Assembly (NCBI RefSeq): GCF_041154745.1
Contig: NZ_AP031573.1
Span: 4,960,001 to 5,024,000 of the forward strand
Direction: 5' to 3'
DNA: 64,000 nt
From: Flavobacterium sp. CFS9
Lineage (GTDB): Bacteria; Bacteroidota; Bacteroidia; Flavobacteriales; Flavobacteriaceae
The notes below the pieces were generated by a model, which saw only the letters and a list, made by a program, of their open reading frames with translations, ran no database searches and had not been told where the DNA came from. The position numbers and the translations under genes were made by a program. Of this stretch, positions 3,678-34,105 are shown one piece after another. How positions within the stretch are numbered: the stretch's first letter is position 1; every line of letters begins with the position of its first letter.

Positions 3678-3771
3678 TCCTTATTTTTTTAAAAATGGCT
3701 AAATTTCAAGAAAAAATCTTAGTAAAATAGGCTGTTTCTATACTACATGCCCCCACTAACCTATATTGTTT

Positions 3772-4230: not shown

Positions 4231-4363
4231 AAGGGCAAAAATACAAACTATGTGAAATTAAAAAAAAAGTTCTTTTTTTACACCTATAATCTATGTTTCT
4301 ATGTGCAAATTGTTTTTTTTTGTTAATTGTACCCAACGACTTAATTTTAAAGAACAAATATTT

Positions 4364-4939
4364 ATGAATACCCTGAGGCTTTTATTTATTTTTTGCTTCC
4401 TGACAATATCAAAGAAATGTTATACCCAAGATTTATTATTAAAAGATCTGGACAATGATACTATAAAAGATGAGATACTCTTTGATAGAAAAAATAGTCA
4501 AATAATCTGTAAACTATCCTCACAGAATTCATTACCCATTAAAAGCAAAAAATTAGATGATTTAAATGATGCATCAGGAATTGAACTAACAAAAAATGGT
4601 TTTCAATTCTATAATCATTCCATGCGATCCGGGTATTATTGTCAATTCAGATATAACACCACACAAAATAAAATTGAACTAATTGGAATGAGTAGATATA
4701 ATGATGGTAATGCGGCGCAAGATGGCAGTGGGGAATCCAGTGTAAATTTATTGACACATCAATATATTGGCGAATGGATTCGCGTTGACCTTAAATTAAA
4801 AAAACGTATAAAAATTCCAACAATTAAGAAACCCTATACAACAAATAAAGTTTATCTACAGCAGTTCAGTGTTAAGCAGCCTGATGATTTTGTTGAGTTT
4901 TGCGATAACATTAGAAATAAAATGGTGCATAGAATATAA
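4364..4939 (+). CDS. Secreted hypothetical protein
   Basis: I prefer the ATG at 4364 to the in-frame upstream start at 4301, because it begins directly with a signal peptide (MNTLRLLFIFCFLTISKKCYTQ). The mature protein, about 170 residues, starts with LLKDLDNDTIKDEILFD, a DxDxDxxxD-like calcium-binding or FG-GAP-like segment, followed by a beta-rich region. This resembles small secreted proteins that begin with a single VCBS/FG-GAP-type motif. No enzyme motifs are visible. It stands alone, followed by a rho-independent terminator at about 5000-5031. The function is unknown. Confidence 0.6.
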   Translation: MNTLRLLFIFCFLTISKKCYTQDLLLKDLDNDTIKDEILFDRKNSQIICKLSSQNSLPIKSKKLDDLNDASGIELTKNGFQFYNHSMRSGYYCQFRYNTTQNKIELIGMSRYNDGNAAQDGSGESSVNLLTHQYIGEWIRVDLKLKKRIKIPTIKKPYTTNKVYLQQFSVKQPDDFVEFCDNIRNKMVHRI

Positions 4940-17279: not shown

Positions 17280-18713
17280 ATGACAAATCTTGAAAAAATC
17301 TATTATGTAAACGCCGGACCGGGCGGAACCTTTCAAAAATCCGGAAACTATTATACGACACCTGCCGATGTCGACAACCTATTCAAACATCTTGAAGATC
17401 ACGACATCGAAAGACTGCTTGTATATTTCCATGGCGGACTGGTGAATGAAGCCAGTGGAATGGAATCGGCCGAAGTTATGCGTGCCAATTTCGTTGATGC
17501 TCCTTCCAAAACACATGCGATTACCTTTGTATGGGAAACAGGACTTTGGGAAATCATAGTCGAAAATCTTAGTGCCAAAAGCTCAGACAATCAATTCCAG
17601 AAAGTACTCAACTATGTCATTAAAATTGTAGGCAAAAAACTGGGCGTTGGTTCGCGTGGTGGCGGTGAAACAATGGATAACCTGACTATTGAAGCAGAAA
17701 AACGAAAAGAGTATCCGTTTGCTCAACTAAACAATCCCTCTGGAAATAGCCGTAGCGGAAACCTTTTGTTTGATGCCGAAGATGAAGAAACCTTTTTGGC
17801 CAAACTTGAGCAGGAAAGTAATACCTTGATCCGCGCAGAAGATGAGATGGCGACAGAAGAAATTGAAGTTGCAGACCCGGATTCCAATGCTGAAGATTCA
17901 AAAGGATTGTTGCTGACGATAGGTAAACTGGTAGCTCAAATTGCGTTTGCAGTACTAAAACGTTACGCGCAAGAAACCCATCACGATTTTTACCCAACCA
18001 TTGTAGAAGAGACCTTTAGAAAGATTTCGATCGACCGAGTAGGCAAATGGGGCTGGTCTGAAATGAAAGAAAAAGCCCAAAAAATGTTTGCTGATAATCA
18101 GGGACGTTCAGGTGACGATTTACATGCCGGGACCTATTTTCTTTCCTTATTAGAAAAACATTACCAAAACAGACAAACTGCAGGTAAAAAATTCGCTATT
18201 GAACTCGTAGGACATAGTGCGGGTTCTATCGCAATTTGCAACATGCTGGCCACAACATCCGAAAATTTTAAGGACTTAAAATACAACAATGTTATTTTTC
18301 TGGCGCCCGCCTGCAGAACCGACCTCTTCATTGCAAAAGGAATTCCTGCTAAACAAAAAGGAATTTATAAAAAATTCAAGATGTTTACCATGCGGGAAGA
18401 AAATGAGAAAAAAGATTATTGTGTTAAATACCTGTACACCTACTCCCTGCTCTACCTTGTATCGGGCTTATTCGAAAACGAAACGGATGCAAAGATAATG
18501 GGACTTCATGAACAGTTTAAGGCTGATAAACGCTATGAAAATTTCGCCGAATTGAAAACAATCAATAGCTTTATTTTTAGCAACAAACTCGCACTATCAG
18601 ATGATCTCATCAATACGGATAACAGCATGTGGACTGATTCTTTCCGCCACGGTGATTTTGACAACAACCCTGCCACTCTAAAATCAATTCTTTCCACTAT
18701 CAATATCGTTTAA
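17280..18713 (+). CDS. Alpha/beta-hydrolase-like protein, first gene of the caspase cluster
   Basis: This 477-residue soluble protein has no signal peptide. LLVYFHGGL (47-54) fits a beta-strand plus oxyanion HGG loop; ELVGHSAGSIAICNML places a GHSAG nucleophile elbow at 311-315 (Ser313); RHGDFDNN places a His (457) near the C-terminus. Together these fit the Ser-His triad of an alpha/beta hydrolase (lipase, esterase or peptidase). Residues about 100-240 form a large insertion rich in Glu/Asp, poorly ordered in appearance. The caspase gene begins 2 bp after its stop, so the two are co-expressed. An effector role is inferred. The substrate is unknown. Confidence 0.7.
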   Translation: MTNLEKIYYVNAGPGGTFQKSGNYYTTPADVDNLFKHLEDHDIERLLVYFHGGLVNEASGMESAEVMRANFVDAPSKTHAITFVWETGLWEIIVENLSAKSSDNQFQKVLNYVIKIVGKKLGVGSRGGGETMDNLTIEAEKRKEYPFAQLNNPSGNSRSGNLLFDAEDEETFLAKLEQESNTLIRAEDEMATEEIEVADPDSNAEDSKGLLLTIGKLVAQIAFAVLKRYAQETHHDFYPTIVEETFRKISIDRVGKWGWSEMKEKAQKMFADNQGRSGDDLHAGTYFLSLLEKHYQNRQTAGKKFAIELVGHSAGSIAICNMLATTSENFKDLKYNNVIFLAPACRTDLFIAKGIPAKQKGIYKKFKMFTMREENEKKDYCVKYLYTYSLLYLVSGLFENETDAKIMGLHEQFKADKRYENFAELKTINSFIFSNKLALSDDLINTDNSMWTDSFRHGDFDNNPATLKSILSTINIV

Positions 18714-18715
18714 TT

Positions 18716-19762
18716 ATGAATTATGCTATTGTAATAGGAATCGACCACTATGAGAAAAAACCGCTGTCAGGTGCTGTAGCGGATGCTAAAGCTTTCGCCA
18801 ACTGGCTGGAAACAAAAGGTGGGGTACTAAAAGATAACCTCAAACTGTTTGTATCAGACAGCGAAGACCTGCTCGTTAGCGGTCCCGAAATTGACATAGC
18901 CATCAATAAAATGAATACCGTTGCCAGAAAAAACAATGAAAAAAACAGATTGTATTTTTATTTCTCCGGACATGGTATAGGCGTCACTTTTGAGAATACG
19001 GCATTGTGCCTCCGTCTCTGGCCGGCACTAATCAACCATTGCATTTCAGGTATGGATTACCGTACCTGGTTTACTAATGCAGGTGCGTTTGATGAGATCC
19101 TTATTTTCTTTGATTGCTGTCGTGAACACGATACGCTGATTAAAGGAAATTCCCCTACTGGCCCCTGGAATCTCCCGGTGGGTAATAGAAATCCACAAGT
19201 CCTTATTTGTAATTCTACCGCCTATGGCAAACTGAGCTATGAGATAGTTATTGATCCGGTAACAGACAATCCATCAGACGATGTTACAACCGACGAACAA
19301 CCAAAAGAATCAGAGTCTGACAAAAAAAGAGGAGCTTTTACCACTTTTCTTATTGACAGTCTCAATGGTGATGCCGACAGTGATGCAACCGGGCAAATTA
19401 CGGCAATGAATCTTATGAATCATATCCGGAACAATTTCAAGAGCCATGCCGAAAAGTTCAAAAAAATACAGGATGCCTCAGCCGATTCTCTAAATGGCGG
19501 GGATCAGATTCTAATTTGTAACGTTCCTGTAAAACTGCCAAAGTACAATTGCGAAATTACTTTTGAGCGTAACTCTAATGTCACACTCTACGGTCCGAAC
19601 CTCGAAAAAGTCTGGCACGGTGATGTTATCATAGGACAGGTTTTACAGCTAAAAGGACTAGCTAAAGGTTTTTATCAGCTCAAAGACAATACCGATACTG
19701 CAGCACCACCCAAAACTTTTATCAATTACTCTCCAAAAACCATCAGTTATGAACGATTTTGA
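18716..19762 (+). CDS. Caspase-like cysteine protease (peptidase C14 family)
   Basis: Residues 1-200 of this 348-residue protein match the caspase/metacaspase p20 fold: YAIVIGIDHYEKKPLSGAVADA at the start, LYFYFSGHGIG with the catalytic His86, and ILIFFDCCREHD with the catalytic Cys135 (second Cys of DCC). A second block, RGAFTTFLIDSLNGD, fits the p10-like part. An acidic Asp/Glu-rich loop (about 180-205) separates them and could be a processing site. Residues about 275-348 form an extra beta-rich domain resembling the N-terminus of the next protein (KGFYQLK against KGIYQLK). It overlaps the next gene by 14 bp. Bacterial C14 proteases are often effectors of conflict systems. Confidence 0.85.
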   Translation: MNYAIVIGIDHYEKKPLSGAVADAKAFANWLETKGGVLKDNLKLFVSDSEDLLVSGPEIDIAINKMNTVARKNNEKNRLYFYFSGHGIGVTFENTALCLRLWPALINHCISGMDYRTWFTNAGAFDEILIFFDCCREHDTLIKGNSPTGPWNLPVGNRNPQVLICNSTAYGKLSYEIVIDPVTDNPSDDVTTDEQPKESESDKKRGAFTTFLIDSLNGDADSDATGQITAMNLMNHIRNNFKSHAEKFKKIQDASADSLNGGDQILICNVPVKLPKYNCEITFERNSNVTLYGPNLEKVWHGDVIIGQVLQLKGLAKGFYQLKDNTDTAAPPKTFINYSPKTISYERF

Positions 19763-21152
19763 TCCTAAATACTCCATTCGTATTTCTTTCAAACAGCCTC
19801 TGGAAGGCTTACAGCTTGTACTTGTTGATGGAACACTGAACAAAATTGTAGAGGAAGAGACGCAACAACTTGAACTTTCACTGGTAAAAGGAATTTACCA
19901 ATTAAAAGCTTCTTTTATAGACTACTTCGAAGAATACTTTCTCAACGTGAGTCAGGACGAGCATTTTGTTCTGGATTATCATTATCCAATGACTTCTCCC
20001 AGTATGGAATTTGCAACAACTCATGAATATTTTTCGAACCCAGCTGAAATGTGGAGCCGAAAATGTACCTATAACGACAAAAATCAAATCCCAAATTTCT
20101 TTTTCTTTGCTGCGGCTTATGACAGGGATTTTCCAAATAAAGAACAAACCGTCACAAACCTTTTAACAAACTTTTCTCTCTATGATCCTAACGGTAAACT
20201 GTATATTCGTTTCAGGGATAAAAATTCGTTTATCGATCCGGATGCAGCTGTAATGGTTTTTTCTGCCCAACTCAACAATGGAATGTATTTCCTTCAATAT
20301 GAAAAAGAAAAGGAACGCAGGATTTTCCCCTTTTATATCTATGACCGGTTCCAAACCCAGTTTTTACTGCGTTACAAACAAACACCCGATTTTTCCAACA
20401 GTTTTTTCTACTATGACAATAAGTTTGGATTTAACCGAACGGACCACCAATACCTGTTGCTGGACAAGATACAATATGCTTACAAGGACTACAGCAACTA
20501 TAAACTGCTAACCCCTTCGGACCGCTCTGCTATAAAAAAGCACCCTTATTTGGTTGCCTTGCTCATCATTCTTCATATAGCCACTGAAAACCAACAGGAT
20601 AGTAAAGAATTTACTGGTTCCCAAATACTATTTCTACCCGATATTGCAATACTCACAGCCTTAAAAGACAGCAAGCAACAAATCAATTCAGACGAATTAC
20701 CGATCGTTTCAGCGATAATGGCCAAGTGTATGGTAACTGCCGGAAAAAAAATGGAATTCAGACCCGGATCTATAATGGATCGTGTGCTGGACACTTTAAG
20801 TTTTGATATCTTCTGGAACAATTTTTCAGCTGTAGAAGACCTCTCGCTTATGGAAAAATTATATAACGATTTGCTCGACAAATCAAAACTTTATGGTAAA
20901 AACCTCAAAAGAAAAGCGGCACAAATCATTACCAATTCAATAGCACCAGAATTATTAAAGGAAGAGCACCTCAACAGTTTATTAGGAAACACTCCTACTG
21001 ACACATCAGAGAGTGATACCAAATTTATAGAGGCTATCAATAGTGTTGGCAACGTATCGCAAATCTCCAACAAACTCAATCTTCCTCCCACAACTGTTCT
21101 CCGCAACTATGAAAAGTATGATGATATTTACAAAAAAATGAATCTGAAATAA
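19749..21152 (+). CDS. Unrecognised protein of the caspase cluster
   Basis: I do not recognise this 467-residue protein. Residues 1-75 look like the C-terminal domain of the upstream caspase: both have a YxxxIxF strand, a Lys-containing loop and a KGxYQLK segment. The centre (80-250) is rich in aromatic residues and beta-like (NGMYFLQYEKEKERRIFPF). From about 255 it becomes helical. The last 30 residues (NVSQISNKLNLPPTTVLRNY) resemble a helix-turn-helix, though this could be a protein-interaction helix pair. The start overlaps the caspase gene by 14 bp, so translation is probably coupled and the product may be the caspase's partner or substrate. Confidence 0.65.
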   Translation: MNDFDPKYSIRISFKQPLEGLQLVLVDGTLNKIVEEETQQLELSLVKGIYQLKASFIDYFEEYFLNVSQDEHFVLDYHYPMTSPSMEFATTHEYFSNPAEMWSRKCTYNDKNQIPNFFFFAAAYDRDFPNKEQTVTNLLTNFSLYDPNGKLYIRFRDKNSFIDPDAAVMVFSAQLNNGMYFLQYEKEKERRIFPFYIYDRFQTQFLLRYKQTPDFSNSFFYYDNKFGFNRTDHQYLLLDKIQYAYKDYSNYKLLTPSDRSAIKKHPYLVALLIILHIATENQQDSKEFTGSQILFLPDIAILTALKDSKQQINSDELPIVSAIMAKCMVTAGKKMEFRPGSIMDRVLDTLSFDIFWNNFSAVEDLSLMEKLYNDLLDKSKLYGKNLKRKAAQIITNSIAPELLKEEHLNSLLGNTPTDTSESDTKFIEAINSVGNVSQISNKLNLPPTTVLRNYEKYDDIYKKMNLK

Positions 21153-21170
21153 TCTAAAAACTAATTACTC

Positions 21171-21227
21171 TATAGAAACATAGCATGTTTTTGCAAATGC
21201 AAAGCCTATGTTTCTGTGGGCTAAAAC
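21171..21227. repeat. Dispersed intergenic repeat, short copy
   Basis: An AGAAACATAG / CTATGTTTCT inverted repeat encloses TTGCAAATGCAAAG, which also resembles the end of the repeats at 952-1031 and 48785-48885. It fills most of the 117-bp gap inside the caspase cluster and could attenuate or end transcription between its third and fourth genes. Confidence 0.45.
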
Positions 21228-21269
21228 GAATTATACTCAACAAATTAATAAACTAAAACCACATTCATA

Positions 21270-21815
21270 ATGACTGATGACGAAATTATAGAAAAGAAAA
21301 ACGAACTTATGGAAGAACACTGGACAGAAAACCTCCACCAGTCCTTACAAGATTTTCATCCTGATGTAGCCCAAAAAATAGTCGATTCAATGGATGATAA
21401 TGAGATCTATGTAAAAGTAAATCACAGAAGGTTTCAGGAAGATTATATTGCCAATTACTTAGCTTTTTTATGGGACATTAGTAAAGAAGCCTTCTGGAAA
21501 CATATCATCATCTCACTGGATCCTGAAATTGGCATCTTATGGGGTAGTTCTATGCCACACTTTGAAAAAATGTGCAGAAACAGAATTCCCGAAGATGTAT
21601 TGGAAGCAGTTATACTTTTTTTGATTCACGATAAAAGTAAATTCGCGCAGGATACTGAAGCAATAGGGTGCGTTCTAAGAGCTCAGGCAAAAAGATTTAA
21701 CCGCTTGGATGAAATAAAAAATTATGTTCGCTCTCTAAACCTACCGGAAGAAACTGAAATCATCAATCAAATCGAACAATTAATAGAAACTGAACCTGGC
21801 TATTCTTTTTACTAA
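21270..21815 (+). CDS. Unknown protein, tandem paralogue 1 of the caspase cluster
   Basis: This 181-residue, acidic, apparently all-helical cytosolic protein has no signal peptide or membrane segment. It is a clear paralogue of the next gene along its whole length: shared blocks include EHWTE, LQDFHPDVA, KIVDSMD, RIPED and DTEAIGC. Trp, His and Tyr are frequent (LWDISKEAFWKH). I recognise no family. Its downstream neighbour starts 37 bp later. Tandem duplicates of this sort in conflict loci may be immunity or specificity proteins, but this is inference. Confidence 0.65.
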   Translation: MTDDEIIEKKNELMEEHWTENLHQSLQDFHPDVAQKIVDSMDDNEIYVKVNHRRFQEDYIANYLAFLWDISKEAFWKHIIISLDPEIGILWGSSMPHFEKMCRNRIPEDVLEAVILFLIHDKSKFAQDTEAIGCVLRAQAKRFNRLDEIKNYVRSLNLPEETEIINQIEQLIETEPGYSFY

Positions 21816-21852
21816 AGCTATACAGCCAGACTAACAAACACTTTATTTCATA

Positions 21853-22398
21853 ATGACAGATAACGAAATTATAAAAAAGAAAGAGGAACTAATGTCGGAG
21901 CACTGGACCGAAGATTTACACCGCTCTTTACAAGACTTTCATCCTGATGTAGCCCGAAAAATAGTCGATTCGATGGACCATCATGACATCTATATAAAAG
22001 TCAATCTAAGACACTGCCAGGAAGATTATATAGCAGATTACTTAGAATACTTATGGGATATTAGCGAAGATGCCTACTGGAGACATATCAGTATTTCATT
22101 AGATACTGAAGTGGGGCTATTGTGGAGCGATAATATGTCACATTTAAAAAGATTGTGCACCACCAGAATTCCGGAAGATATATTGATGGCGGTTATTCTT
22201 TTTTTGATTGATGATGAAAGAAACATCTATCAGGATACAGAGGCAATTGGCTGTATCTTAAAAGCTCAGGCAGAAAAGTTTGACCGATTAGAAGAAATAC
22301 TCTCTTACATTAAATGCCTAAACCTAAAAGACGAAAGCGACATCATAAATCAGGTCGAAGAATTAATTAAAAAAGAATTCAATTACTATTTTTTCTAA
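21853..22398 (+). CDS. Unknown protein, tandem paralogue 2 of the caspase cluster
   Basis: This second copy, also 181 residues, keeps the same start (MTDNEIIKKKEELM) and helical plan as its neighbour, with changes spread along the length rather than focused, so the duplication is not very recent. The stop codon overlaps the ATG of the next gene (TAATG), so it is translationally coupled to the membrane-associated protein. I cannot assign a function. Confidence 0.65.
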   Translation: MTDNEIIKKKEELMSEHWTEDLHRSLQDFHPDVARKIVDSMDHHDIYIKVNLRHCQEDYIADYLEYLWDISEDAYWRHISISLDTEVGLLWSDNMSHLKRLCTTRIPEDILMAVILFLIDDERNIYQDTEAIGCILKAQAEKFDRLEEILSYIKCLNLKDESDIINQVEELIKKEFNYYFF

Positions 22399-23483
22399 TG
22401 AACTATAACCATTTTACCATAAGCTATATTACAGCACTGCAAAAAAATCTGCAAATTGAAATCGTCGATGATGACGCTTTATTCTTCCCCGATTTCATTC
22501 GAACTGAAGATTTAGAAAATTTAAAAACGGAATTACAGGAAATCTGGGAACACTCAGAGTCTTCCATTACCATATTAAAAAACAAAGAAGATGCAAAAAT
22601 CCAACTTGGACTTTTTGGATCGGTTACTGATTTTGATTTAGCGTTAAAAACCGGTTACTTATTAGGTGATCGTGTTGTAGTTATAGACTACATTTTTGAA
22701 AGAATTATCAATAAGAAACCCTTAAACGAAATTAATATCCCTTATCTGGGCAGCATAAGCTCTAATCTGGTTTTGGCCCTTGAACTGGCTAAGAAAGGAC
22801 GCTTTGTTATCATTCCAAATCCTTTTAGCTGGAATGAAGATTCAAAAAAAATTATCGCCGAGACTGCCGGAAAAACAATGATGTCTGTTGAGCTAATGAG
22901 CTTGCTGAATATGTTATCCATCACCAAAATTTGTAAACTCCATCCTTATACCATAGCGGAGTCTGTTGAAAATTACGAAAGCATCATATCAAACCAGATA
23001 AGTCATACCGATGCGATGGACAAAACAACTGAAGAGTATGCATATCAAGGGATTCTGGGAGGTTTATTAACTGAAAAATTAATCAATGAAGCCGAATTCC
23101 AAACGCTATTAGACATCCCCTTAACCGAATATGCAGAAGTTATAGCGCTACAACAGAATTTTTATACCGAATACCTGAAAAGAATAACATTTGGAGGAGC
23201 GCTAAAGGCAGAAAATAATATTGAAGAATTAAAAAATGAGGTTTTAAATTTAATCGAAGAACGGAACAAAAATGTTTATAAAAAAATAATAGAAAAAGCA
23301 GGAATAATGACCGGAATTGGAGGTGCCGCGCTATCGCTATTGCCAATAATGATTGCTGTCTCTGCTCCGGTAGTATCAACAGGTACTGTTCTGGCAGCAT
23401 CCGGTACATTCGCCGCTTTATTTAAAAGCAAAGAACTTGAAGGAACTCCTGTAATCAATGTTTTTACGAAACTAATTACCTAA
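22398..23483 (+). CDS. Unknown protein with hydrophobic C-terminal hairpin, last gene of the caspase cluster
   Basis: This 361-residue protein has a soluble N-terminal part of about 295 residues. It starts with a short beta/alpha region (LQIEIVDDDALFFPDF) and continues as a helical domain. A coiled-coil-like stretch (ENNIEELKNEVLNLIEERNK) precedes two hydrophobic segments at about 303-341 (GIGGAALSLLPIMIAVSAP and VLAASGTFAALF), which could insert in a membrane. The layout (sensor or regulatory domain plus C-terminal membrane hairpin) suits a pore-forming or membrane-targeting effector. It shares the TAATG junction with the preceding gene. I do not recognise the family. Confidence 0.6.
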   Translation: MNYNHFTISYITALQKNLQIEIVDDDALFFPDFIRTEDLENLKTELQEIWEHSESSITILKNKEDAKIQLGLFGSVTDFDLALKTGYLLGDRVVVIDYIFERIINKKPLNEINIPYLGSISSNLVLALELAKKGRFVIIPNPFSWNEDSKKIIAETAGKTMMSVELMSLLNMLSITKICKLHPYTIAESVENYESIISNQISHTDAMDKTTEEYAYQGILGGLLTEKLINEAEFQTLLDIPLTEYAEVIALQQNFYTEYLKRITFGGALKAENNIEELKNEVLNLIEERNKNVYKKIIEKAGIMTGIGGAALSLLPIMIAVSAPVVSTGTVLAASGTFAALFKSKELEGTPVINVFTKLIT

Positions 23484-23827: not shown

Positions 23828-24505
23828 TCAAACCCAAAAATAAATCTTCAAGACAGCTGTGAAAACTGCTATACTTTTACTAAAGCAAATTGTCCTGCGG
23901 TTGAGTCTTTTCAGATGAGTTCTAAGTGTCAAATTTTTCCTCTCAATATGATTTGTCCCAAAACGTTTTACCGAATGCAATTTCTGATCAATCAGATACC
24001 TGTAATTTTTGAGTCTGTCCGTAAATATTTTCTTTGCTTCTGATAATTTTAAAGTATCCAAAACTCGATTAAATGTTTTATTCGTTCTCTTTCCAAGATT
24101 AAAACTTACCACTGTTCCAGAATTCTTTTCCAAAGCATACACCAGCCAAATGTAATTTTTCTTGTACCTGATATAAGTACAAAGTTCGTCTACTTCATAA
24201 GTTTTACCTTTACTGATAATTGGTTTGCTAATACTTCTGGCAATTGAAACAATCCTTTTTAATAATGTTGTGGTGGATATTTTCAATATTCTTGCGGTGC
24301 TTCTTATTCCTAAACCTTCTTTGGTTAATTGAATGATACTTGTATTTATAGCTACCTTATAAGCTTGATAAGTATAATTTTCAACTCTGGTTTTCCCACA
24401 TACTTTACAAATATATCTTTGACTGCCAGACTTTGTCTTTCCATACTTTATCATGTTTGGAATGTCGCCAACACATCTGAAACATCTAGTCTGATTTGAA
24501 CTCAT
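23828..24505 (-). CDS. IS1-family transposase
   Basis: This 225-residue single-frame transposase starts with two CxxC pairs (CFRCVGDI and CKVCGKTRVE), the InsA-like zinc finger. An HTH segment follows (LGIRSTARILKISTTTLLKRI). The catalytic part has the DDE-type motif TYEVDELCTY and the characteristic IS1 C-terminus IERKNLTLRTHLKRLNRRT. All key motifs look intact and there is no frameshift, so it may still be active. Terminal inverted repeats and a target duplication could not be found by eye, so the element's exact limits are open. It lies between the caspase cluster and an RHS toxin locus, both typical cargo neighbourhoods for mobile DNA. Confidence 0.88.
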   Translation of the reverse strand: MSSNQTRCFRCVGDIPNMIKYGKTKSGSQRYICKVCGKTRVENYTYQAYKVAINTSIIQLTKEGLGIRSTARILKISTTTLLKRIVSIARSISKPIISKGKTYEVDELCTYIRYKKNYIWLVYALEKNSGTVVSFNLGKRTNKTFNRVLDTLKLSEAKKIFTDRLKNYRYLIDQKLHSVKRFGTNHIERKNLTLRTHLKRLNRRTICFSKSIAVFTAVLKIYFWV

Positions 24506-24707: not shown

Positions 24708-25154
24708 TCAAGATATTTCTAAAGAGTTAATATTAACTATCTCATATAATTTTTGATTAATAATTGTCTCTTTCAATTTACTTTTAATTTCTTGTGATAA
24801 ATCTGAAAAACTCAATGGCTTAACAGGAAAAGCAACTAAATGATAATTGGTATCTTTAAAATTATTTAAGACTGTTTTGTCAAAAGCATATAAACCTTTT
24901 CGCGCCATTGTTATAAAATCATTTAAATACCTCTCGTCAGGTTTTGATTTTAAAATTTTATCTAAATCCTCATTTAATTTAATTTCAGATATATCAGGTA
25001 AATTTCTAAAATATAAAACTAATATTTCATAATTTTTAGATTTTTCAATAGATTTCGGCAATTTCCCACCACCAGAAGCAACAAATGCTATGTTATTCGC
25101 ATCGCTAAAAAACCAATCTATGTCTAAAGATTGTTGTTCAATTTCACTAATCAT
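24708..25154 (-). CDS. Putative immunity protein of the RHS deaminase toxin
   Basis: This 148-residue cytosolic protein has no signal peptide. Its start is 11 bp after the stop of the RHS gene, the usual place of the cognate immunity gene of a polymorphic toxin. It begins ISEIEQQSLDIDWFFSD, continues with FVASGGGKLP and has a helical C-terminus. I do not recognise a named immunity family, so the assignment rests on position, size and the toxin-like end of the upstream gene. The terminator at 24539 lies downstream. Confidence 0.6.
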   Translation of the reverse strand: MISEIEQQSLDIDWFFSDANNIAFVASGGGKLPKSIEKSKNYEILVLYFRNLPDISEIKLNEDLDKILKSKPDERYLNDFITMARKGLYAFDKTVLNNFKDTNYHLVAFPVKPLSFSDLSQEIKSKLKETIINQKLYEIVNINSLEIS

Positions 25155-25165
25155 ATTATCTAATT

Positions 25166-28100
25166 TTATTTTTTTTCAAAAGTCGCTTTACAATTATCAC
25201 ACATATCTATAATTTGCCCTGTTCGTGGACGAATTGCATTTGTAAAATTAATTTGATTTGGTAATGCACTTGGATTATCTATTAACAAACTATTTCCTGC
25301 ATGAAATTCTGAACAACATCCAACAGTATTTCCAGTTGCTGTTTTTGTTCCTATACCGCCTAATTTTTCAACAATGCCCTCTAATTGAGGTGCAATTACT
25401 GATGGAGGTGCTCCACTAATAGTAATCATTGTTTGACCATTTAATTCAGCACCTACGACAGTAGCAGGAGTTTGTCGAGACGCTGCTAACTCCGCTGCTG
25501 TGGCATTAACAGAATTAGTTAGCGTACTCATAGTTGAAGCTTTTTGTATTGAGTTAATCGTAGCATTTATACCTTTTGCTCCAATAACAGCTCCAGCAAT
25601 TTCGCCAATAACTTCCCCCCTTTGCTGTCCATTTCCATTAATAAGGTTATTTACTCCTTTATCAATAGATTTGCTAACTGCCTGTGATGTCCCAAAAGAA
25701 TTAGTTCCAATTGCATTATCAACTCTCAGCATAGATAATGGATTATTGCCCACAGCTCCCGCAACAGCCATATTTGCAATTCCTTTTACAGTACTAACAG
25801 GGTGAGTTACTGCATTGACCAATCCTTTAGCACTATTATACAGTCCACTTGCAACTCCATTGACATGAGCAGGAACTCCATTTGGTTTTGCATAAGCATG
25901 AGCATTCCAGACTGCCTGAAACCATGCTCCTTCTAGTCCTTCAAGCTCACGATGACTAATTACTTTATTTTCTGCAAAATTATAAGGAGATTGATAACTG
26001 TAGTTTTCCGCTAGTGGGTCAATTGACATAAACCTACCAATAGTCATATCATAATTTCTATACTTAAAGCTGTCCCAGTTCAATGATAGCTCATCTTGAC
26101 GCTCTTGACCTTGGAACTTATATTTATAATCAGGCTGCAGATTATCCATATTATACCCTTTGTGCTTCAGCCCAAAAGGATAATAGTTACTTTCTTCAAC
26201 AATTCTAAGAACATTATTTACAGGATTTCTATCATAACTCAATCTTACGTTACCCAAATGATCTCTATAATGATAAACATATTTTTGATATACATTATCA
26301 TAATACCCTCCCTCTGTAGGAAAAAATTGCAACGTTGGTCGTGATACAACATTTTGTTCACCTGCTAAGCTGGAACGATTATTCTCTACTGGAGGATCGA
26401 TTACCGGGTCGGTACCATCAATAGGAGGATCAGTGTCTCCCGGATCTTCAGGTGCCGGACCACCATAGTCGACATAGTTGTACTGAAAACCATCCAGATA
26501 ATCTGTTTTCGTGACAGTTTCGTTCGCACTAACAATTTTCTCCAGTTTTTGACCCGCTGCGTTGTAAATATACTCAATTGACCCACTTGTTCCAAATGTA
26601 ATTTTCTTAGGTAAATTGAGCTGATTGTATTGAATCTCAGTGATGCTTTTGTTTTTATCGGTAATCATATTGCCATTGGCATCATAAGTAAAATCATCAC
26701 CGGTTTTGTTTCCGTCCTTAAAACCTTCGTTGTCATTTCCGGCTGGACTGTCGGTTACTTTCGTTAACTGATTCGAGTTTTGATCCAAATAACCATAAGT
26801 CAAATCATCAATTTGGAAAACTATCGAAGGTGCATCACTAGCCCCATAACGCTGCAGGGAGGTAATGTTTCCGTTTTTGTCGTAACTCAAACTTTCATTA
26901 TAGGCGCCCGATGCCGGAATCGCATCATTGGGTTTGCTATAAATGGCACTGGTCAAACGGTTCAGATTGTCGTACTGATACCCATAGGAGCGCTTGGTCA
27001 CATCGGTATTGGTCTTCCAGGTAGTTTCTGAAATATTTCCGTTATACAAGGCTTGAACCTGTGAGTTGCCCGGCTGTTTGTCATAATTTATTTTAAAAGC
27101 GAACAGATCTTTAGGATCTGTGTCCTGCTGTAGCTCTTCGACATTGTTGATTCCGGTAAGCCAGCCTCTAATATTGTAACTGTAATGTACTTTCTGTAAA
27201 GGGCTTGTTACGTTGTTCCCTACATTCTTAACGATCAATTGCCCCAGATCATCATAACTATTGTTTGCTAAAACTTCAACGGTTCCGCCATTGATCTGAT
27301 GGGTATGGGTTAGCAAACGATCCTGAGGCGAATAGGTAAATTCTTCTTTTACTGTCAGTTCCGTATCTCCAGACTTACGTTTGTGTTTGGTAATACTGTA
27401 AAGCACCTTTCCGGTAAAATCAAGTTTACTATCGGTAGTAGTGTAACCGCTCAGATGATTCTGAATTCGGGTGCTTATAGCTCGGGCTTTGGTATCGTAA
27501 AAGGTGGTAGTGGTTTCTCCTAATGTTTCTGAGGAGGTAGTCAGGGCTCTTGTCCAGCTTCCGGTCACTAAACCTTTGGTATTATCTAAAACAGCCTGAT
27601 CTTCGACAGAAGCAGGTCTAACCGGAGCATTAGGATAATCATAGTCATCGTAATAAGTAACCGTTAAAAGTTTAAAATTTACCGGAGCATTATTATTGCT
27701 ATAGTATATCGTTATATTGTCGCCTATAGTTCCTATATAGCCTCTGCTTTCATACAGAACAGTAGCCGTATTCTGTTCATCCTGCAACGATTTTCTATTG
27801 GCGGATCCCGGAGGTACACCGCTCCAACCTGTATAAACAGGTCTGCCAAAACCATCGTATTTGGTAATGAGCCAGCCTTCAGCGGTTTCATCTTTAAAAG
27901 GCGAAAAAGCCGGCCCCGTCGCGACGGGACGATCGAGTTTGTCATAGACAATATACTCCCATTGTTTTCCGGGTAGTTTTTTTTCCACCAGACGATTGCG
28001 ATGATCGTATTTGTACTGATAACACAAGCCGTTTAAAACATCATTGCTAACAACACCTGTTACTTTTGGCGGCAGTACATAGCTCAGATTGCCATACCTG

Positions 28101-28894
28101 TCATAAACATAGTAAGTGTCATGTTTATCACCTGAATTGTAAGTTCTTTTAAGGATGACCTGCCCTTCTTTGTTTTTAAATTCTACTGTGGAGCCTGATG
28201 ATTCACTTGGATTTGCTGTTGTATTTTCATCATAGGTTATGGTTTTATACAATTGATTGGCTGCATAATTGCCCTCATCTGAAAAAGCAGTGCTAAACAG
28301 TCCCAATCCCGCATCCCAGGTTGCAGTGGCTGTAAATAATCTTACTTCATCAGCAGTGTTGGTCTGATAATCCATTTTGATTTCGTGTCCGCTATCCATA
28401 GCCCAAGCATCCCCTGGAGCTGCTTGTCTTAATACTCTGTTCAGAGGAGAGGCTTCCAGTTTTTTCTGAGAAAATGGATTAGCTGTATTATCATACGTCT
28501 GGGTACCGTAAAAACCTGTTAACGCATTGATAGCAACAGCAGGATCTATTCGGGTATAATTATCCCCTCCGTTCTGGGAAGCATAAGGCAAATATTCTTT
28601 GACTTGTCTTCCAAAAACATCATACTCCACAGGAGTAATGATATCTTTTCCACCTTCTCCCTGACCAATAGCAATGGTTTGTACCGGACGTCCGAGTCCG
28701 TCAAAATAGGTTATGCTTTGATTTTTCTCGTCTTTGGTCAGCGCATTTAGACCTGCAGTCTGAACCGGTTTCTTTGGCGTTACTGTATAAATATAGTTAT
28801 CATCACTAAAAGTCTGGGCTTTTGCGCCAAAACCGATAAGGAATACTAAAATTAACAGCGGTATATATTTTTTCATTAGGTTGTAATTTCTCAT
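25166..28894 (-). CDS. RHS-repeat protein with DUF6443-like N-terminus and deaminase-like toxin tip
   Basis: This secreted 1242-residue protein is a likely polymorphic toxin. A signal peptide is visible (IPLLILVFLIGFGAKAQ); a start at 28876 is also possible. The N-terminal region (ITYFDGLGRPVQTIAIG) fits DUF6443, followed by YD/RHS repeats and the core motif YRDHLGNVRLSY, then GRFMSIDPLAENY, after which the toxin domain is variable. The last 60 residues contain GCCSEFHAGNSLL (Cys1194-Ser-Glu1196) and RPRTGQIIDMCDNC (Cys1232, Cys1235). This is the CxE ... CxxC zinc-site pattern of YwqJ-like nucleotide/nucleic-acid deaminases, with Ser replacing the usual Ala. The immunity gene follows. A 30-bp gap links it to the DUF5977 protein upstream. 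Confidence 0.85.
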   Translation of the reverse strand: MRNYNLMKKYIPLLILVFLIGFGAKAQTFSDDNYIYTVTPKKPVQTAGLNALTKDEKNQSITYFDGLGRPVQTIAIGQGEGGKDIITPVEYDVFGRQVKEYLPYASQNGGDNYTRIDPAVAINALTGFYGTQTYDNTANPFSQKKLEASPLNRVLRQAAPGDAWAMDSGHEIKMDYQTNTADEVRLFTATATWDAGLGLFSTAFSDEGNYAANQLYKTITYDENTTANPSESSGSTVEFKNKEGQVILKRTYNSGDKHDTYYVYDRYGNLSYVLPPKVTGVVSNDVLNGLCYQYKYDHRNRLVEKKLPGKQWEYIVYDKLDRPVATGPAFSPFKDETAEGWLITKYDGFGRPVYTGWSGVPPGSANRKSLQDEQNTATVLYESRGYIGTIGDNITIYYSNNNAPVNFKLLTVTYYDDYDYPNAPVRPASVEDQAVLDNTKGLVTGSWTRALTTSSETLGETTTTFYDTKARAISTRIQNHLSGYTTTDSKLDFTGKVLYSITKHKRKSGDTELTVKEEFTYSPQDRLLTHTHQINGGTVEVLANNSYDDLGQLIVKNVGNNVTSPLQKVHYSYNIRGWLTGINNVEELQQDTDPKDLFAFKINYDKQPGNSQVQALYNGNISETTWKTNTDVTKRSYGYQYDNLNRLTSAIYSKPNDAIPASGAYNESLSYDKNGNITSLQRYGASDAPSIVFQIDDLTYGYLDQNSNQLTKVTDSPAGNDNEGFKDGNKTGDDFTYDANGNMITDKNKSITEIQYNQLNLPKKITFGTSGSIEYIYNAAGQKLEKIVSANETVTKTDYLDGFQYNYVDYGGPAPEDPGDTDPPIDGTDPVIDPPVENNRSSLAGEQNVVSRPTLQFFPTEGGYYDNVYQKYVYHYRDHLGNVRLSYDRNPVNNVLRIVEESNYYPFGLKHKGYNMDNLQPDYKYKFQGQERQDELSLNWDSFKYRNYDMTIGRFMSIDPLAENYSYQSPYNFAENKVISHRELEGLEGAWFQAVWNAHAYAKPNGVPAHVNGVASGLYNSAKGLVNAVTHPVSTVKGIANMAVAGAVGNNPLSMLRVDNAIGTNSFGTSQAVSKSIDKGVNNLINGNGQQRGEVIGEIAGAVIGAKGINATINSIQKASTMSTLTNSVNATAAELAASRQTPATVVGAELNGQTMITISGAPPSVIAPQLEGIVEKLGGIGTKTATGNTVGCCSEFHAGNSLLIDNPSALPNQINFTNAIRPRTGQIIDMCDNCKATFEKK

Positions 28895-28924
28895 TAAAAA
28901 ATAAATCTAAATATTCACTTTACA

Positions 28925-31900
28925 TTAGTGATTGTCATACGTACAGGTTCCATGGGTATTGGCGTAATTCTGACCGTTAGTATTTATATCACTAGACGCC
29001 ATAAAATTAGCATTCCTCTGGCTCGCAGTAGAGAAGTATGTACCAAAAGGAACTGTATAGGTTACTGTTGATCCTATAGATCCTGTTCCACAATTGTTTC
29101 GGATAAAATCCTCACTTCTTTGTTCATTATAAAAACCACAGACCCCATTGGCATTGGCATAATTCTGTCCGTTTTGAGCCACATCATTCTGGGCTTTCAT
29201 ATTGGCATCTGCCTGTGATGATTCTGACCAATGAGTACCAGCAGCCACGGTATAGGTAACAGCCGAACCCCATTGACCTGCGGGACAATTATTTTTTGTA
29301 AAAATGCCACTGGTGGCTGTATTGTAAAAACGACAAGTCCCATTATTATTGGCATGGGCCTGACCAAATACATCACATCTTTGATTAGCCCTGTAATCTG
29401 CATCAAACTGCGACTCTCTCGATGTAATTCGTCCCGCCGGAAGTGAATAATCTGAAGAAGACCCTACACTGCCTGCAGGGCAATTGTCTTTAGCATATGA
29501 TTTAGTAATGGCTGCACTGTAAAAGGTGCAATACCCTTTAGCATTAGCATTGGCCAGTCCATTATTGTTCACATCCTGTTGTGCCAAATCATCTGCAGCT
29601 GCCTGTGACTCTCTCGAGAAGTGTCTTCCAGCAGGAACGATGTAGACCTCTGTTGAACCCTCTCCACCCGACGGACAATTATTTTTGGTGAATGAACCAC
29701 TTTTTTCAGTATTGGCGAAAGTACAATACCCATTAGTATTGGCATTGGTCCTACCATTTGCATTAAATAAAGTCAATCCTTTTGAATCAGCATGAGCTTG
29801 TGAATCTGTTGAAGTTTCGGCACCTGCGATCTGACTAAAAAACACGCTTGACCCTACTCCACCGGGAGCACAATTATCCTTAGTAAAGGAACCGCTAAAG
29901 GCGATACTGCTGAATGTACAATACCCATTCGTATTAGCATAAACCTCACCTTTTGCGTTGAATAAAGCCAATCCTTTTGCATCTGCATCAGCTTGTGAAA
30001 GTGTTGAAGTTTTAGCACCTTCAACCTGGCTATAAGGTACACTTGATCCTACTCCACCGGTATCACAATTAATTCTGGTAAATGAACCGCTTAAAGCAAT
30101 ACTTCTGTACGTACACTCTCCTTTACTATTGGCATTGATCTGACCGTTTGTATTGAATAAGGCCAGTCCTTTTGAATCGGCATGAGCCTGAGAAATATCT
30201 GAAGTCTCCGCTCCTGCCACCTGACTAAAAGGTACAGTTGATCCTACTCCACCCGCATCACAATTATCTTTGGTAAAGGATCCGCTTAGAGCAATACTTT
30301 TAAATGTACAATATCCTTTAGCATTGGCGTTGATCTGACCGTTTGTATTGAATAAGCCTAGTCCTTTTGAATCGGCATGGGCCTGAGAAATTGTTGAGGT
30401 TTCCGCGCCTTCAGCCTGACTAAAAAACACATCTGATCCGACACCACCAGCCGGACAATTAGTTTTTCTGAACAAACCGCTTCGGGCAATACTTCTGTAC
30501 GTGCACTCTCCTTTGCTATTAGCATTGGCCTGTCCGTTTGCATTTATATCTGCCAATGCTTTTCTATTGGCATCTTCCTGTGAAATCGTTGAAGTATATA
30601 CCCCGGCAGCTACTACATATTCTATTGGTGAACTACTACCTCCAACAGGACAGTCATTTTTTGTAAATACTTGGCTCTGTCTCGTGTTTTCATAGATAAT
30701 CTGCCCTTTATAATTGTAACGATATACTTGTAAAATGTTTTTATCCTTATCCCTGACCGATTTTAATCTGTTAAGTTCATCATACTCATAATAACTTACC
30801 AATCCCTTTGGATCGGTCATGCTGCTTATTCCTATTAAAGGCATATAAGTGTAGGTCGTTACCATACTTTTGTCCAGTGCCGAATCATTACGCAATGCAC
30901 TTAGTGCTGTTATTAAAGAAGCTTCATTTCCTGTCCTGGAGGATGCATTTTCTATGGCTGTAATTAAATTGGCAGGAATAACAACAGGTTTGATGCTCTC
31001 TATTTTTGCCACCACCTGACTTCTGTTATACCCCCACACTACCGTTATATTAGCATCTGTCGTCATCAAAGCGGGAGTTGTATTGTCTGTAGTTACGGAC
31101 CCTATAAAATTCACATTTCCACTTAAGTCATAACCATAAAATTTTCTCTTTTCTACAGGATTGACATTTATTCCTTTTGAAAAAGATACGGGCTTAAATA
31201 AATTACTTAAAACAGACTTAAATTCATATTTATAAGAGTCGCTTACTTCTCCGTTTTTCTTGTTTACGATTTGCACTACCGGTGAAACAAAATTTTTATT
31301 GACCATAGCCTGAGAAACAGCATCCGCAAAATCATAAGGATAGAAGATTTCATTTACTACTTTAGTCTTAGTATCATATGTAGTTGTGACCTTTTTTTGC
31401 TTATAATGATCATTATATTCTATTTCAACCGCTCGGTCTACAGGCTCATCTTTATAATATTCCGTTGTTTTTTTGTTGTAAATAAATTTATCACTATCAA
31501 ACTCTTTGTATACATTAAAATAGTAAAAATCTTTAACTGTATGTCCTGGTCCAATCTCTTGATTGGCACTCTTAGCCACCTTAGAATCAATTTTTAAACT
31601 TTTAGGATAATTAGGATTATTTAGGATCGTCAATGGCGCACGATCTAAGTTTATGCCAGTATCAAAATAGAGATTGGTTTCTTCAGAAAGTTTTTTACCG
31701 GTTGTGGTAATCGTATTATTGGAATAGATTAATTTACTTTTTTCAGAACCTACAGACAAATCCTGTCCTGCCGGCTGAGAGGGAAAAGTGGTCGATATTA
31801 TTGACGGCGTATTAAACTGCGTCATTTTGTACCCTTGAGGGTAAATCATTTTCTTAACCCCATAACTTCCAGCTCCGGGTAAATAAGTATAGGAAACAGT

Positions 31901-34105
31901 ATTATTTGCAGCCGATCCAAAATTTCCGCCGCAATTGCTGCATAAAAACTTTTCGGGTATTAAACTTTTAATTTTTACTACACACTCTTTTACAGAAAGA
32001 TATCCCACCGGAGAACTGTTATTCATGCCAAGATTATAAGGTCTTGAACTTGCATTTAAAACATTTTCATTTAGGGGAATTTCTGCATAAGGGAACTGGA
32101 TATCTGTCCTAGTTGGCGCCGTCTCTTTTGATGCATAAGTGGTAAATAAATCAACATTGCCGTTAAACTGAATTCCACTTCCTAATCCGGCAGTATCTGT
32201 ATAATCATAGTATTTTGTCACGGGTTCCCCTATGGCGGGATAGTCTGTTGTTGAACTCACTCTTATCCCCCCTACAGGAACAGTACCTCCATCGCTGGTG
32301 TGTTGTGCAACAACAGCATCATAAAAATTTAAGTTTATTTCTGCCTCCAGATTTTGTGTTCTATTGTAGTCCGTTCGAATTTTAAATTCATAGGTCCCAG
32401 CCGGAATAATAAACTTACCACTGCTGTCCTTAGTTACTGCACAATTATTAAAACTCAAACAATTGCTATCAATTTGTGACAATTCGTTTAATTGCAAAGA
32501 TACAATCGGGATGTCTTTCCCCTCTTGTGTACGGGTTCTGGGAACTAATGTATAATAAGGCGTAGTCGGATCAAAACCAACTGGTAGCTCTGCAGAAGTC
32601 CTGCGAATACTCATATCTATAAAATTTACGTTCCCAATATAATGACTTAAGGTTGCTACGACATTACTATCAAAAGTTTTAGTAAAAACACTTTCTTTAA
32701 CAGGATTGGCATTTTCTGAAAAATCGGATTTAAACTGTAATTTAATCCCAACATTGGGTTCGTTATTCGAACTCTCGTTTTTAATCGCTAAATTTTGCTC
32801 ATACTGTACCTCAGTTCTTCCTCCTGTTGGATAATAAATCGTTTTCAAAGCGCCCTTTTGGGTTTCGAAAAAATTGGGCTTTTTATTCGCATTATAGTTT
32901 GTTCCCTCCACTAAAAAAGGAGTATTGTTATTTGCTCCGTTGGAAAATCCCCAATAATCCAAATTGTTAGGATAATCGTAAATAGTATTAGCAAAATCCG
33001 GTAGGTCTGCATTATAATAGTCAAAACCGTGAAAGAATATGTTATTTTTAATAATATTGTCCAGTACATTTCTCCTGCCTGAATAACTAAAACTGTAAGA
33101 ACTTACCGTTTTATCATTCATATCTTTTACAATGATTTTATTGTAAACTTCATAATTGTTCAATTTTATATAATTGAAACTAATCTTAAAATTTTTAGTA
33201 TCAATCGATTTTAAAATCTTTCTTTTTATAATGTCGTTAGTACACCCTTGGTTGTTTACATCAGCCACAGGAGGAGTACGTTTTTTAATTTGAAGACTTG
33301 CATAAAAATTGTAAGTCATAAAGTCATTGTCATCGTAAACAAAGTTGATTTGCTCGCCATTATTTACAATAATCTTTGATAATTGCCAACTTGAGGTATA
33401 AGTCGGAAGACCTTCCTCAAGAAAAGCATTGTATCCCCTAAAAGGCGTATTGACCTCCTTCTGTTCAAAAAAATACTGATTTGCACTGGCATCTGTTAAA
33501 ATGAAGCCTTCAATAATTTGATCATTGTTTGCATTTCTTAGTATTTGAATTTTATTGTCATGTTTTGATAAAAAAGCCGGGGTTCCGTCTATGCCGATTT
33601 TAAACGAAAAACGAATCCCATTTACACTTACATTGTATTTATCGGCCTCTCCGTCATAAAAGTTTGAAGCCATTTTATTGGCTTCGTGATCCATAATCAC
33701 ATCATTATTAATGTAATTGTTTATGATTTGTTTCGTCGCTGCATTATTAAATCCTCTTGGATGTTCGTCCGGTAAACCTCTTACTTCTCTGCTCACGACA
33801 CCTCCCACACTTAATTGCCACCCCAATCCCATTATCGATGGTGTTTCTTCTAATCGGTTTCCGCTATAATTGTAACTCAATTGAATAGGCAGACTAAGTT
33901 CTCCTACATTTCCGGTAAAAAGTTCAATATTTTTTTGCAATCTACCATAAAATAGATTTACAGGTATTTCTCCAAAGGTTCCCAATCGTGCCGCTTCAGG
34001 AGAAACCGGAAACGTTAACAAATCGGGATTTAAGGTACTTTGCTGGCTATAAGCCGCATTCCAAAAAACAAAAATTAACAAAAATCGGGTTATTACTTTC
34101 TTCAT
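28925..34105 (-). CDS. Very large secreted protein with C-terminal DUF5977-type repeats
   Basis: This 1726-residue protein has a signal peptide (FLLIFVFWNAAYSQ). The N-terminal 1100 residues contain motifs of the Bacteroidota RHS-associated type (LSYNYSGNRLEETPSIMGLGWQLSVGGV, then YYEYDELNRLKSVRDKDKN) but lack a compact RHS core. The last 586 residues are nine tandem units of 63-65 residues, each with a central NC..GG.GS, an ASQ..AD block and a C-terminal NANxxGxC. These match DUF5977. It sits 30 bp before the RHS toxin gene and probably belongs to the same secretion or display assembly. There is no T9SS tail, so the repeats are the exposed end. Confidence 0.8.
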   Translation of the reverse strand: MKKVITRFLLIFVFWNAAYSQQSTLNPDLLTFPVSPEAARLGTFGEIPVNLFYGRLQKNIELFTGNVGELSLPIQLSYNYSGNRLEETPSIMGLGWQLSVGGVVSREVRGLPDEHPRGFNNAATKQIINNYINNDVIMDHEANKMASNFYDGEADKYNVSVNGIRFSFKIGIDGTPAFLSKHDNKIQILRNANNDQIIEGFILTDASANQYFFEQKEVNTPFRGYNAFLEEGLPTYTSSWQLSKIIVNNGEQINFVYDDNDFMTYNFYASLQIKKRTPPVADVNNQGCTNDIIKRKILKSIDTKNFKISFNYIKLNNYEVYNKIIVKDMNDKTVSSYSFSYSGRRNVLDNIIKNNIFFHGFDYYNADLPDFANTIYDYPNNLDYWGFSNGANNNTPFLVEGTNYNANKKPNFFETQKGALKTIYYPTGGRTEVQYEQNLAIKNESSNNEPNVGIKLQFKSDFSENANPVKESVFTKTFDSNVVATLSHYIGNVNFIDMSIRRTSAELPVGFDPTTPYYTLVPRTRTQEGKDIPIVSLQLNELSQIDSNCLSFNNCAVTKDSSGKFIIPAGTYEFKIRTDYNRTQNLEAEINLNFYDAVVAQHTSDGGTVPVGGIRVSSTTDYPAIGEPVTKYYDYTDTAGLGSGIQFNGNVDLFTTYASKETAPTRTDIQFPYAEIPLNENVLNASSRPYNLGMNNSSPVGYLSVKECVVKIKSLIPEKFLCSNCGGNFGSAANNTVSYTYLPGAGSYGVKKMIYPQGYKMTQFNTPSIISTTFPSQPAGQDLSVGSEKSKLIYSNNTITTTGKKLSEETNLYFDTGINLDRAPLTILNNPNYPKSLKIDSKVAKSANQEIGPGHTVKDFYYFNVYKEFDSDKFIYNKKTTEYYKDEPVDRAVEIEYNDHYKQKKVTTTYDTKTKVVNEIFYPYDFADAVSQAMVNKNFVSPVVQIVNKKNGEVSDSYKYEFKSVLSNLFKPVSFSKGINVNPVEKRKFYGYDLSGNVNFIGSVTTDNTTPALMTTDANITVVWGYNRSQVVAKIESIKPVVIPANLITAIENASSRTGNEASLITALSALRNDSALDKSMVTTYTYMPLIGISSMTDPKGLVSYYEYDELNRLKSVRDKDKNILQVYRYNYKGQIIYENTRQSQVFTKNDCPVGGSSSPIEYVVAAGVYTSTISQEDANRKALADINANGQANANSKGECTYRSIARSGLFRKTNCPAGGVGSDVFFSQAEGAETSTISQAHADSKGLGLFNTNGQINANAKGYCTFKSIALSGSFTKDNCDAGGVGSTVPFSQVAGAETSDISQAHADSKGLALFNTNGQINANSKGECTYRSIALSGSFTRINCDTGGVGSSVPYSQVEGAKTSTLSQADADAKGLALFNAKGEVYANTNGYCTFSSIAFSGSFTKDNCAPGGVGSSVFFSQIAGAETSTDSQAHADSKGLTLFNANGRTNANTNGYCTFANTEKSGSFTKNNCPSGGEGSTEVYIVPAGRHFSRESQAAADDLAQQDVNNNGLANANAKGYCTFYSAAITKSYAKDNCPAGSVGSSSDYSLPAGRITSRESQFDADYRANQRCDVFGQAHANNNGTCRFYNTATSGIFTKNNCPAGQWGSAVTYTVAAGTHWSESSQADANMKAQNDVAQNGQNYANANGVCGFYNEQRSEDFIRNNCGTGSIGSTVTYTVPFGTYFSTASQRNANFMASSDINTNGQNYANTHGTCTYDNH
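28928..30685. repeat. Nine tandem ~195-bp coding repeats (DUF5977-type)
   Basis: The translated units are 63-65 residues, with conserved Cys near position 14 and another near the end of each unit. The central units (2-5) are closest to each other; the outer units are more diverged. The array is inside the 1726-residue gene and in frame. Confidence 0.85.

Follow-up and report, generated by a model that had tools for sequence, protein, structure and literature searches.

A conserved hydrolase-caspase-partner gene trio in Flavobacterium as a possible caspase-operated switch on a candidate pro-lipase

A 64,000-nucleotide stretch of the Flavobacterium sp. CFS9 genome (positions 4,960,001 to 5,024,000 of contig NZ_AP031573.1, hereafter the window, in whose numbering all coordinates are given), belonging to a genome that is a single contig of 5.37 Mb, carries six open reading frames (ORFs) on the + strand at 17280-18713, 18716-19762, 19749-21152, 21270-21815, 21853-22398 and 22398-23483 (genes 1-6). 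Their spacings, recomputed as 2, -14, 117, 37 and -1 bp, agree with an earlier note on this DNA, which had taken all six genes to be a candidate for one undescribed conflict or defence system. The conserved unit is in fact made up of genes 1-3 (17280-21152), encoding an alpha/beta-hydrolase, a caspase and a 467-residue partner protein, while genes 4-6 are neighbours and not parts of it. We rejected the six-gene system because genes 4-6 are missing from seven of the eight loci that hold the trio and are present in one alone (L003).

A scan of genome contigs with an alignment of gene 3 gave these eight loci, and in all of them hydrolase, caspase and partner follow one another in this order. L003, the nearest relative, shares the flanks of the window; taking the window and L003 as one and L004-L006 as one group, the trio lies within at least six different sets of chromosomal flanks. 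The same order in eight of eight loci across so many surroundings argues that the linkage is beyond chance. Conserved co-occurrence of the hydrolase, caspase and 467-residue genes, which the earlier note had named as a check, also extends to a wider set: hydrolase queries added 12 distinct loci that encode the hydrolase at full length. Seven of them are on plasmids of rhizobia (L014, L015, L016, L018, L029, L030 and L032; L016 and L032 both come from S. meliloti), five are from sampled genomes of Bacteroidota (L025 and L047-L050), and both caspase and partner are found in 11 of the 12. The exception is L050, where neither adjoins the hydrolase. The third protein matches a core hidden Markov model (HMM) of gene 3, re-trained on its own matches, in eight of the 12 loci, and the un-retrained HMM also finds L014 (1.1e-16), L015 (3.4e-16) and L025 (2.7e-4); the third proteins of L016, L030 and L032 match that of L018 rather than the core profile. 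L024 and L046 fall on contigs already represented by L006 and L010 and were not counted again, and the weak hydrolase matches L052 (7.7e-18) and L053 (3.6e-5), with no caspase among the ORFs shown, were placed outside the 12. The plasmid search matched 11 records, with neither H8 nor the place listed for H11 among those fetched; gene 3 itself gave no plasmid match.

Some loci join or exchange the components. The caspase and a gene-3-like part form one protein in L025, and hydrolase and caspase are fused in L031 (6933-9917, a cyanobacterial plasmid) and L045 (7656-10499, a sampled Bacteroidota genome), where an amidase_2 domain, the same type of hydrolase and the caspase make up single polypeptides. 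In L026 (6245-10507, - strand), a gene for a papain-hydrolase fusion precedes those for PLAT and pYEATS proteins, and this arrangement may be a relative of the trio that lacks the caspase; papain domains occur in L017 and L026 (Pfam) and in L033 (annotation), L034 and L051 lying outside the scan. Directly upstream of the R. leguminosarum hydrolase-caspase-pYEATS trio of L018 is an 1184-residue AAA_16/TPR-like protein (1309-4863, below the Pfam cut-off), possibly an NTPase sensor.

Gene 1 (17280..18713, + strand, as are all features of the trio) encodes a 477-residue candidate pro-lipase/esterase. The motifs that had been read from it are all invariant across a 44-row alignment: HGG (residues 51-53, 17430..17438), which we take to be the oxyanion-side motif, the GHSAG nucleophile elbow with Ser313 (residues 311-315, 18210..18224), and His457 (18648..18650), the likely catalytic His. 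Fold, nucleophile elbow and late His together place the protein in the alpha/beta-hydrolase superfamily; Foldseek alone found nothing at E<=0.001, and a Pfam match to DUF900 lies below the cut-off of that family. Between HGG and GHSAG there is an extra insert of ~130 residues (~108-235, 17601..17984), the proposed gate, in which three low-confidence loops break an otherwise confident model. HGG and GHSAG are 256 residues apart in gene 1 and 239-280 apart in the rows shown for low-motif sequences and loci; in the fused hydrolases (n=7), which have no insert, the spacing is 117-133.

In each of the three loops a small residue comes after a basic one. Putative cleavage loop 1, SRG (residues 125-127, 17652..17660), has R or K in 41/44 rows and G in 42/44, within a block of predicted local distance difference test (pLDDT) score 62. 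At putative loop 2, SRSG (residues 157-160, 17748..17759; pLDDT <50 at 154-161), R or K is found in 39/44, followed by G in 33/44 or S in 9/44, and at putative loop 3, SKG (residues 207-209, 17898..17906; pLDDT <50 at 202-208), R or K is found in 43/44 and G in 40/44. A basic-then-small pair is present at all three loops in 24 of 26 diverse representatives sharing <50% identity. Between HGG and GHSAG the pattern [SAGT][RK]G occurs 2.80 times per protein, compared with 0.66 when residues are shuffled and 0.22 elsewhere in the sequence; this count used 134 of 141 rows, skipping seven without exact anchors (P0081, P0085, L016, L018, L025, L030 and L032), among which L016, L018, L025 and L030 were inspected separately. 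The small-[RK]-small pattern is found at loops 1, 2 and 3 in 22, 20 and 19 of the 26 representatives, and in 0-2 of them at five points inside the insert, with a control mean of 2.1 and maximum of 12 over 57 other positions. Judged by sequence, the loops resemble paracaspase cleavage sites.

Gene 2 (18716..19762), read in the earlier note as a C14 protease with His86 and Cys135, matches Peptidase_C14 (6e-16) and continues into a C-terminal beta-rich domain. The catalytic His86 (18971..18973) and the segment from Asp133 to the catalytic Cys135 (19112..19120) are invariant in 17/17 aligned caspases, which suggests an active caspase-fold protease with a His-Cys dyad within the C14 domain. Compared with solved structures at E<=0.05, the profile of the His-Cys half matched MALT1 only (10/10 rows, best 2.7e-5), with Asp133 and Cys135 aligned to the D and C of MALT1 'LDMCR' and the likewise invariant Glu176 (19241..19243) to the E of 'EAFE'. 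The S1 pocket of MALT1 consists of Asp365, Asp462 and Glu500 (PMC4357240; this and the other papers cited here are drawn on in partial text), and the MALT1 residues aligned to Asp133 and Glu176, both predicted S1-pocket residues, are taken to be Asp462 and Glu500. Asp23, also invariant in 17/17 caspases, aligns with an Asp of metacaspase-1, so that the predicted pocket is acidic by comparison with both paracaspases (D133, E176) and metacaspases (D23). Gene 2 is accordingly expected to prefer basic residues at P1; the MALT1 cleavage consensus is Phi-X-P/S-R↓G/A (PMC6125328), and metacaspases also cleave after Arg or Lys (PMC4357240). At the p20/p10 boundary, Arg205-Gly206 (19328..19333) is a possible self-cleavage site, R preceding G-x-F in 18/20 aligned caspases, although G-x-F-T may be kept here for structure alone. 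Of the trio genes, only the caspase clearly matches a model in PADLOC (2023), PDLC02987 at 1.5e-20, and no known system was matched.

Gene 3 (19749..21152) shares 14 bp with gene 2. A search of a large protein collection found 33 homologues of the partner that it encodes (E<=1e-3), and the closest named relatives in homologue searches belong to Flavobacterium. The AlphaFold2 (AF2) model, of mean pLDDT 73.8, begins with a beta-sandwich (residues 1-80, 19749..19988) related by hhalign (probability 93.9, 49 columns) to the C-terminal domain of the caspase; fold searches with gene 3 returned common beta-sandwiches only, confined to residues 4-81. A second beta-sandwich (~110-225) and helices (~230-306) follow at 20076..20666, then a poorly predicted stretch, then a helix-turn-helix (HTH)-like tail (~420-465, 21006..21143) with a conserved 'KLNLPPTxVLRNY' and helices at moderate confidence; weak HTH matches, below the Pfam cut-off, are found in the homologues L048 and L049. 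A type IX secretion sorting tail in gene 3 was rejected, the match being internal and below both the Pfam and the NCBIfam cut-offs.

The trio is conserved, its catalytic residues are invariant, and the insert, the loop motifs and the acidic S1-pocket positions are found together. We suggest, with confidence just short of an even chance, that genes 1-3 are a proteolytic switch. The partner, joined to the caspase through related beta-sandwich domains, would sense or relay a trigger and turn the caspase on; the basic-specific, paracaspase-like caspase would then cut between Arg or Lys and a following Gly or other small residue in the three exposed loops of the insert, thereby removing or opening the putative gate of the pro-hydrolase. 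The freed alpha/beta-hydrolase would attack a cellular ester, most probably a membrane lipid, and this would stop or kill the cell. The lipid substrate is suggested by the fold neighbours and by a paper that interprets hydrolases of this kind as cleaving lipids (PMC8195603).

In other bacteria the same trio would work with trypsin-nuclease or pYEATS domains added to the partner. The C-terminus of the partner carries trypsin and PLD domains in Mesorhizobium (L014), trypsin and a NucA-type Endonuclease_NS after the conserved core in R. gallicum (L029, 8367-12125), and pYEATS in S. meliloti, R. leguminosarum and Ensifer; the P0033 partner has a hydrophobic segment and an extra domain at its tail. 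Judged by domain content, such nuclease, trypsin and pYEATS tails support a conflict system, being as expected of one. They also bear on a different and rather unlikely explanation, in which the partner or other cell proteins would be the main targets of the caspase, and the hydrolase would be a second, independent effector or a regulator whose (R/K)G loops serve as flexible hinges or docking sites. Cutting of the partner could release these domains, and in L014 a GRG lies in the stretch of the partner that links the HTH-like region to the trypsin domain; against this, [SAGTP][RK]G is absent from the partners of the window, L008, L009, L010, L016 and L048, whereas the hydrolases have the pattern at three loops.

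Several points weigh against the proposed switch. The loose pattern [RK][GAST] reaches 21/26 at one control position, and it is therefore the stricter patterns, and the three loops taken together, that carry the argument. The hydrolase rows are related, so their counts are non-independent, and the low confidence of the loops in the model may come from sequence variability alone. That the insert covers the hydrolase active site is itself putative. L031 and L045 have the caspase in the same polypeptide and yet no insert; in P0082 both the pattern and the basic residues are gone at all three loops, and the strict motif is absent from P0132, P0082 and L050. The last is no clean control, neither supporting nor refuting a gate: the caspase matches in that genome are only weak (2.1e-9) and lie away from the hydrolase, but basic-small dipeptides are retained at all three loops. 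For the caspase, the whole-length profile ranks metacaspases above MALT1, and MALT1 prefers Arg whereas the hydrolase loops use Lys too. As to a part in defence, gene 3 and the hydrolase had no match in viral contigs, a search of phage records found no homologue of the hydrolase, and the idea that the trio is of phage or viral origin was rejected on these results; none of the six proteins matched PHROGs at E 0.01. Selected flanking proteins are mostly ordinary in Pfam (PriA, RlmN, an AcrB-type pump, two-component regulators), and a PADLOC scan of ten of them gave one match (RmrA models, best 1.4e-16, in L010), so that the case for defence is weakened by neighbours that are mostly non-defence genes.

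These housekeeping and regulatory neighbours and the absence of phage and viral-contig homologues would suit a stress-response or cell-remodelling module, for instance one of regulated lipid turnover with no role against phages or rivals, a reading that we consider unlikely. It sits poorly with a partner as sporadic as this one, full matches being found in 1/249 genomes of the family, 1/299 of the genus and 2/395 of the phylum, and with the different surroundings, the plasmid copies and the swapped nuclease and trypsin domains on the partner. The hydrolase was found in 4/247, 5/395 and 10/375 sampled genomes (the window's own included); the genome draws behind the hydrolase and partner counts overlap one another. 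A third match to gene 3 in the phylum draw (G631) was rejected, as it covers 67 residues only and lies beside an apparent TonB-dependent receptor. It is the sporadic distribution, the plasmid copies and the swapped nuclease domains that suggest a defence role for the proposed switch.

Genes 3-6 had been described as belonging to no recognised family, and none has a match at curated cut-offs in Pfam or NCBIfam. Genes 4 and 5 (21270-22398) are tandem paralogues of 181 residues that, with gene 6, accompany the trio in L003 alone, and no function was found for genes 4-6. Gene 6 (22398-23483) is an independent family of 361-residue proteins with 70 homologues, bearing names that include Vibrio, Arcobacter and Desulfobacteraceae, and has a wider taxonomic spread than gene 3. 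One of the two C-terminal hydrophobic segments claimed for its product lies above the threshold (303-321, mean 2.03), while the second stays below 1.6. Genes 4 and 6 gave no plasmid match, an Rfam search of the locus gave no match, and predicted terminators and promoters around it were fewer than in shuffled sequence and hence uninformative. The IS1 transposase and the putative RHS toxin locus reported downstream are both present. An IS1-type transposase (23828-24505; DDE_Tnp_IS1, 6e-24) sits between gene 6 and a 148-residue gene (24708-25154); in L003 the 148-residue ORF comes directly after gene 6 with no ORF between, so the IS1 copy is possibly a recent insertion in the window. Beyond it, on the - strand (25166-34105), an RHS-type protein (DUF6443 and RHS_repeat) lies beside a 1726-residue protein with nine DUF5977 repeats, and the 148-residue gene may be the immunity partner of the adjoining RHS-type protein.

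Among known systems, the R. gallicum partner, in which trypsin is joined to a NucA-type nuclease, links the trio to the published NucA-trypsin systems (System 3 of Kaur 2020, PMC7159879), but this fusion belongs to the partner of another species and that of the window ends after its HTH-like tail. In the VMAP ternary systems of the same paper, the caspase always has an adjoining alpha/beta-hydrolase gene and joint operation is suggested; a related hydrolase occurs in GAP1-N1 systems. The claim of an undescribed system thus holds only in part, the pairing of caspase and hydrolase being already known, and what is new is the proposed cleavage mechanism. A hydrolase-caspase-partner trio, or the cutting of such a hydrolase by a caspase, was not found in the open-access papers searched, subscription papers lying mostly outside this search, and the passages of Kaur 2020 at hand note the pairing without a mechanism, which the loop motifs now make specifically testable. 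The VMAP systems tie the caspase to VMAP beside MoxR and vWA, whereas the trio has no NTPase, vWA or VMAP and a different, beta-sandwich third protein; neither a MoxR ATPase nor a vWA domain was found by Pfam in the six genes and three neighbours, the wider genome lying outside the search. The trio could still be a reduced offshoot of conflict systems built around an NTPase, VMAP or another, whose NTPase gene would lie elsewhere, a reading that the reported pairing and the AAA_16/TPR-like protein of L018 favour. We think it improbable, as no NTPase domain is found in the trio by Pfam; a VMAP-C protein was found in none of 21 genomes including G000, though control genomes were likewise without a match.

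The nearest tested precedent for a pro-enzyme opened by a caspase, as the proposed switch would be by analogy, is Canu, in which CanA and CanB activate CanC, a pro-nuclease gated by insertions with conserved glycines, and in which altering either predicted CanC cut site abolishes defence (PMC12799240). Both systems have three genes, a caspase with a C-terminal domain that is beta-sandwich or Ig-like in Canu and putatively so in gene 2, an accessory protein and an enzyme with disordered, glycine-bearing insertions. The Canu effector, however, is a metallo-beta-lactamase (MBL)-fold pro-nuclease and that of the trio an alpha/beta-hydrolase, no MBL-fold nuclease being matched by Pfam among the six genes. 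The trio might then represent a new class of conflict effector, a membrane-attacking counterpart of Canu in which a MALT1-like caspase, acting with a modular sensor of beta-sandwich type, releases a pro-lipase kept shut by an insert with three basic-small cleavage loops, an idea that we put forward tentatively and with some doubt. If true, protease-gated pro-enzymes in bacterial immunity would reach from nucleases (Canu, Hachiman, AVAST) to lipases.

MALT1 shares with gene 2 a caspase fold, followed by a domain that is Ig-like in MALT1 and putatively so in gene 2, and acidic residues aligned with the S1 pocket. This paracaspase differs in being eukaryotic and of low similarity (best half-profile E 2.7e-5), and the whole profile of gene 2 is nearer to metacaspases. 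Should the proposed switch prove correct, its cleavage logic would closely parallel the one used by human MALT1, and the three genes would make a compact model for investigating it.

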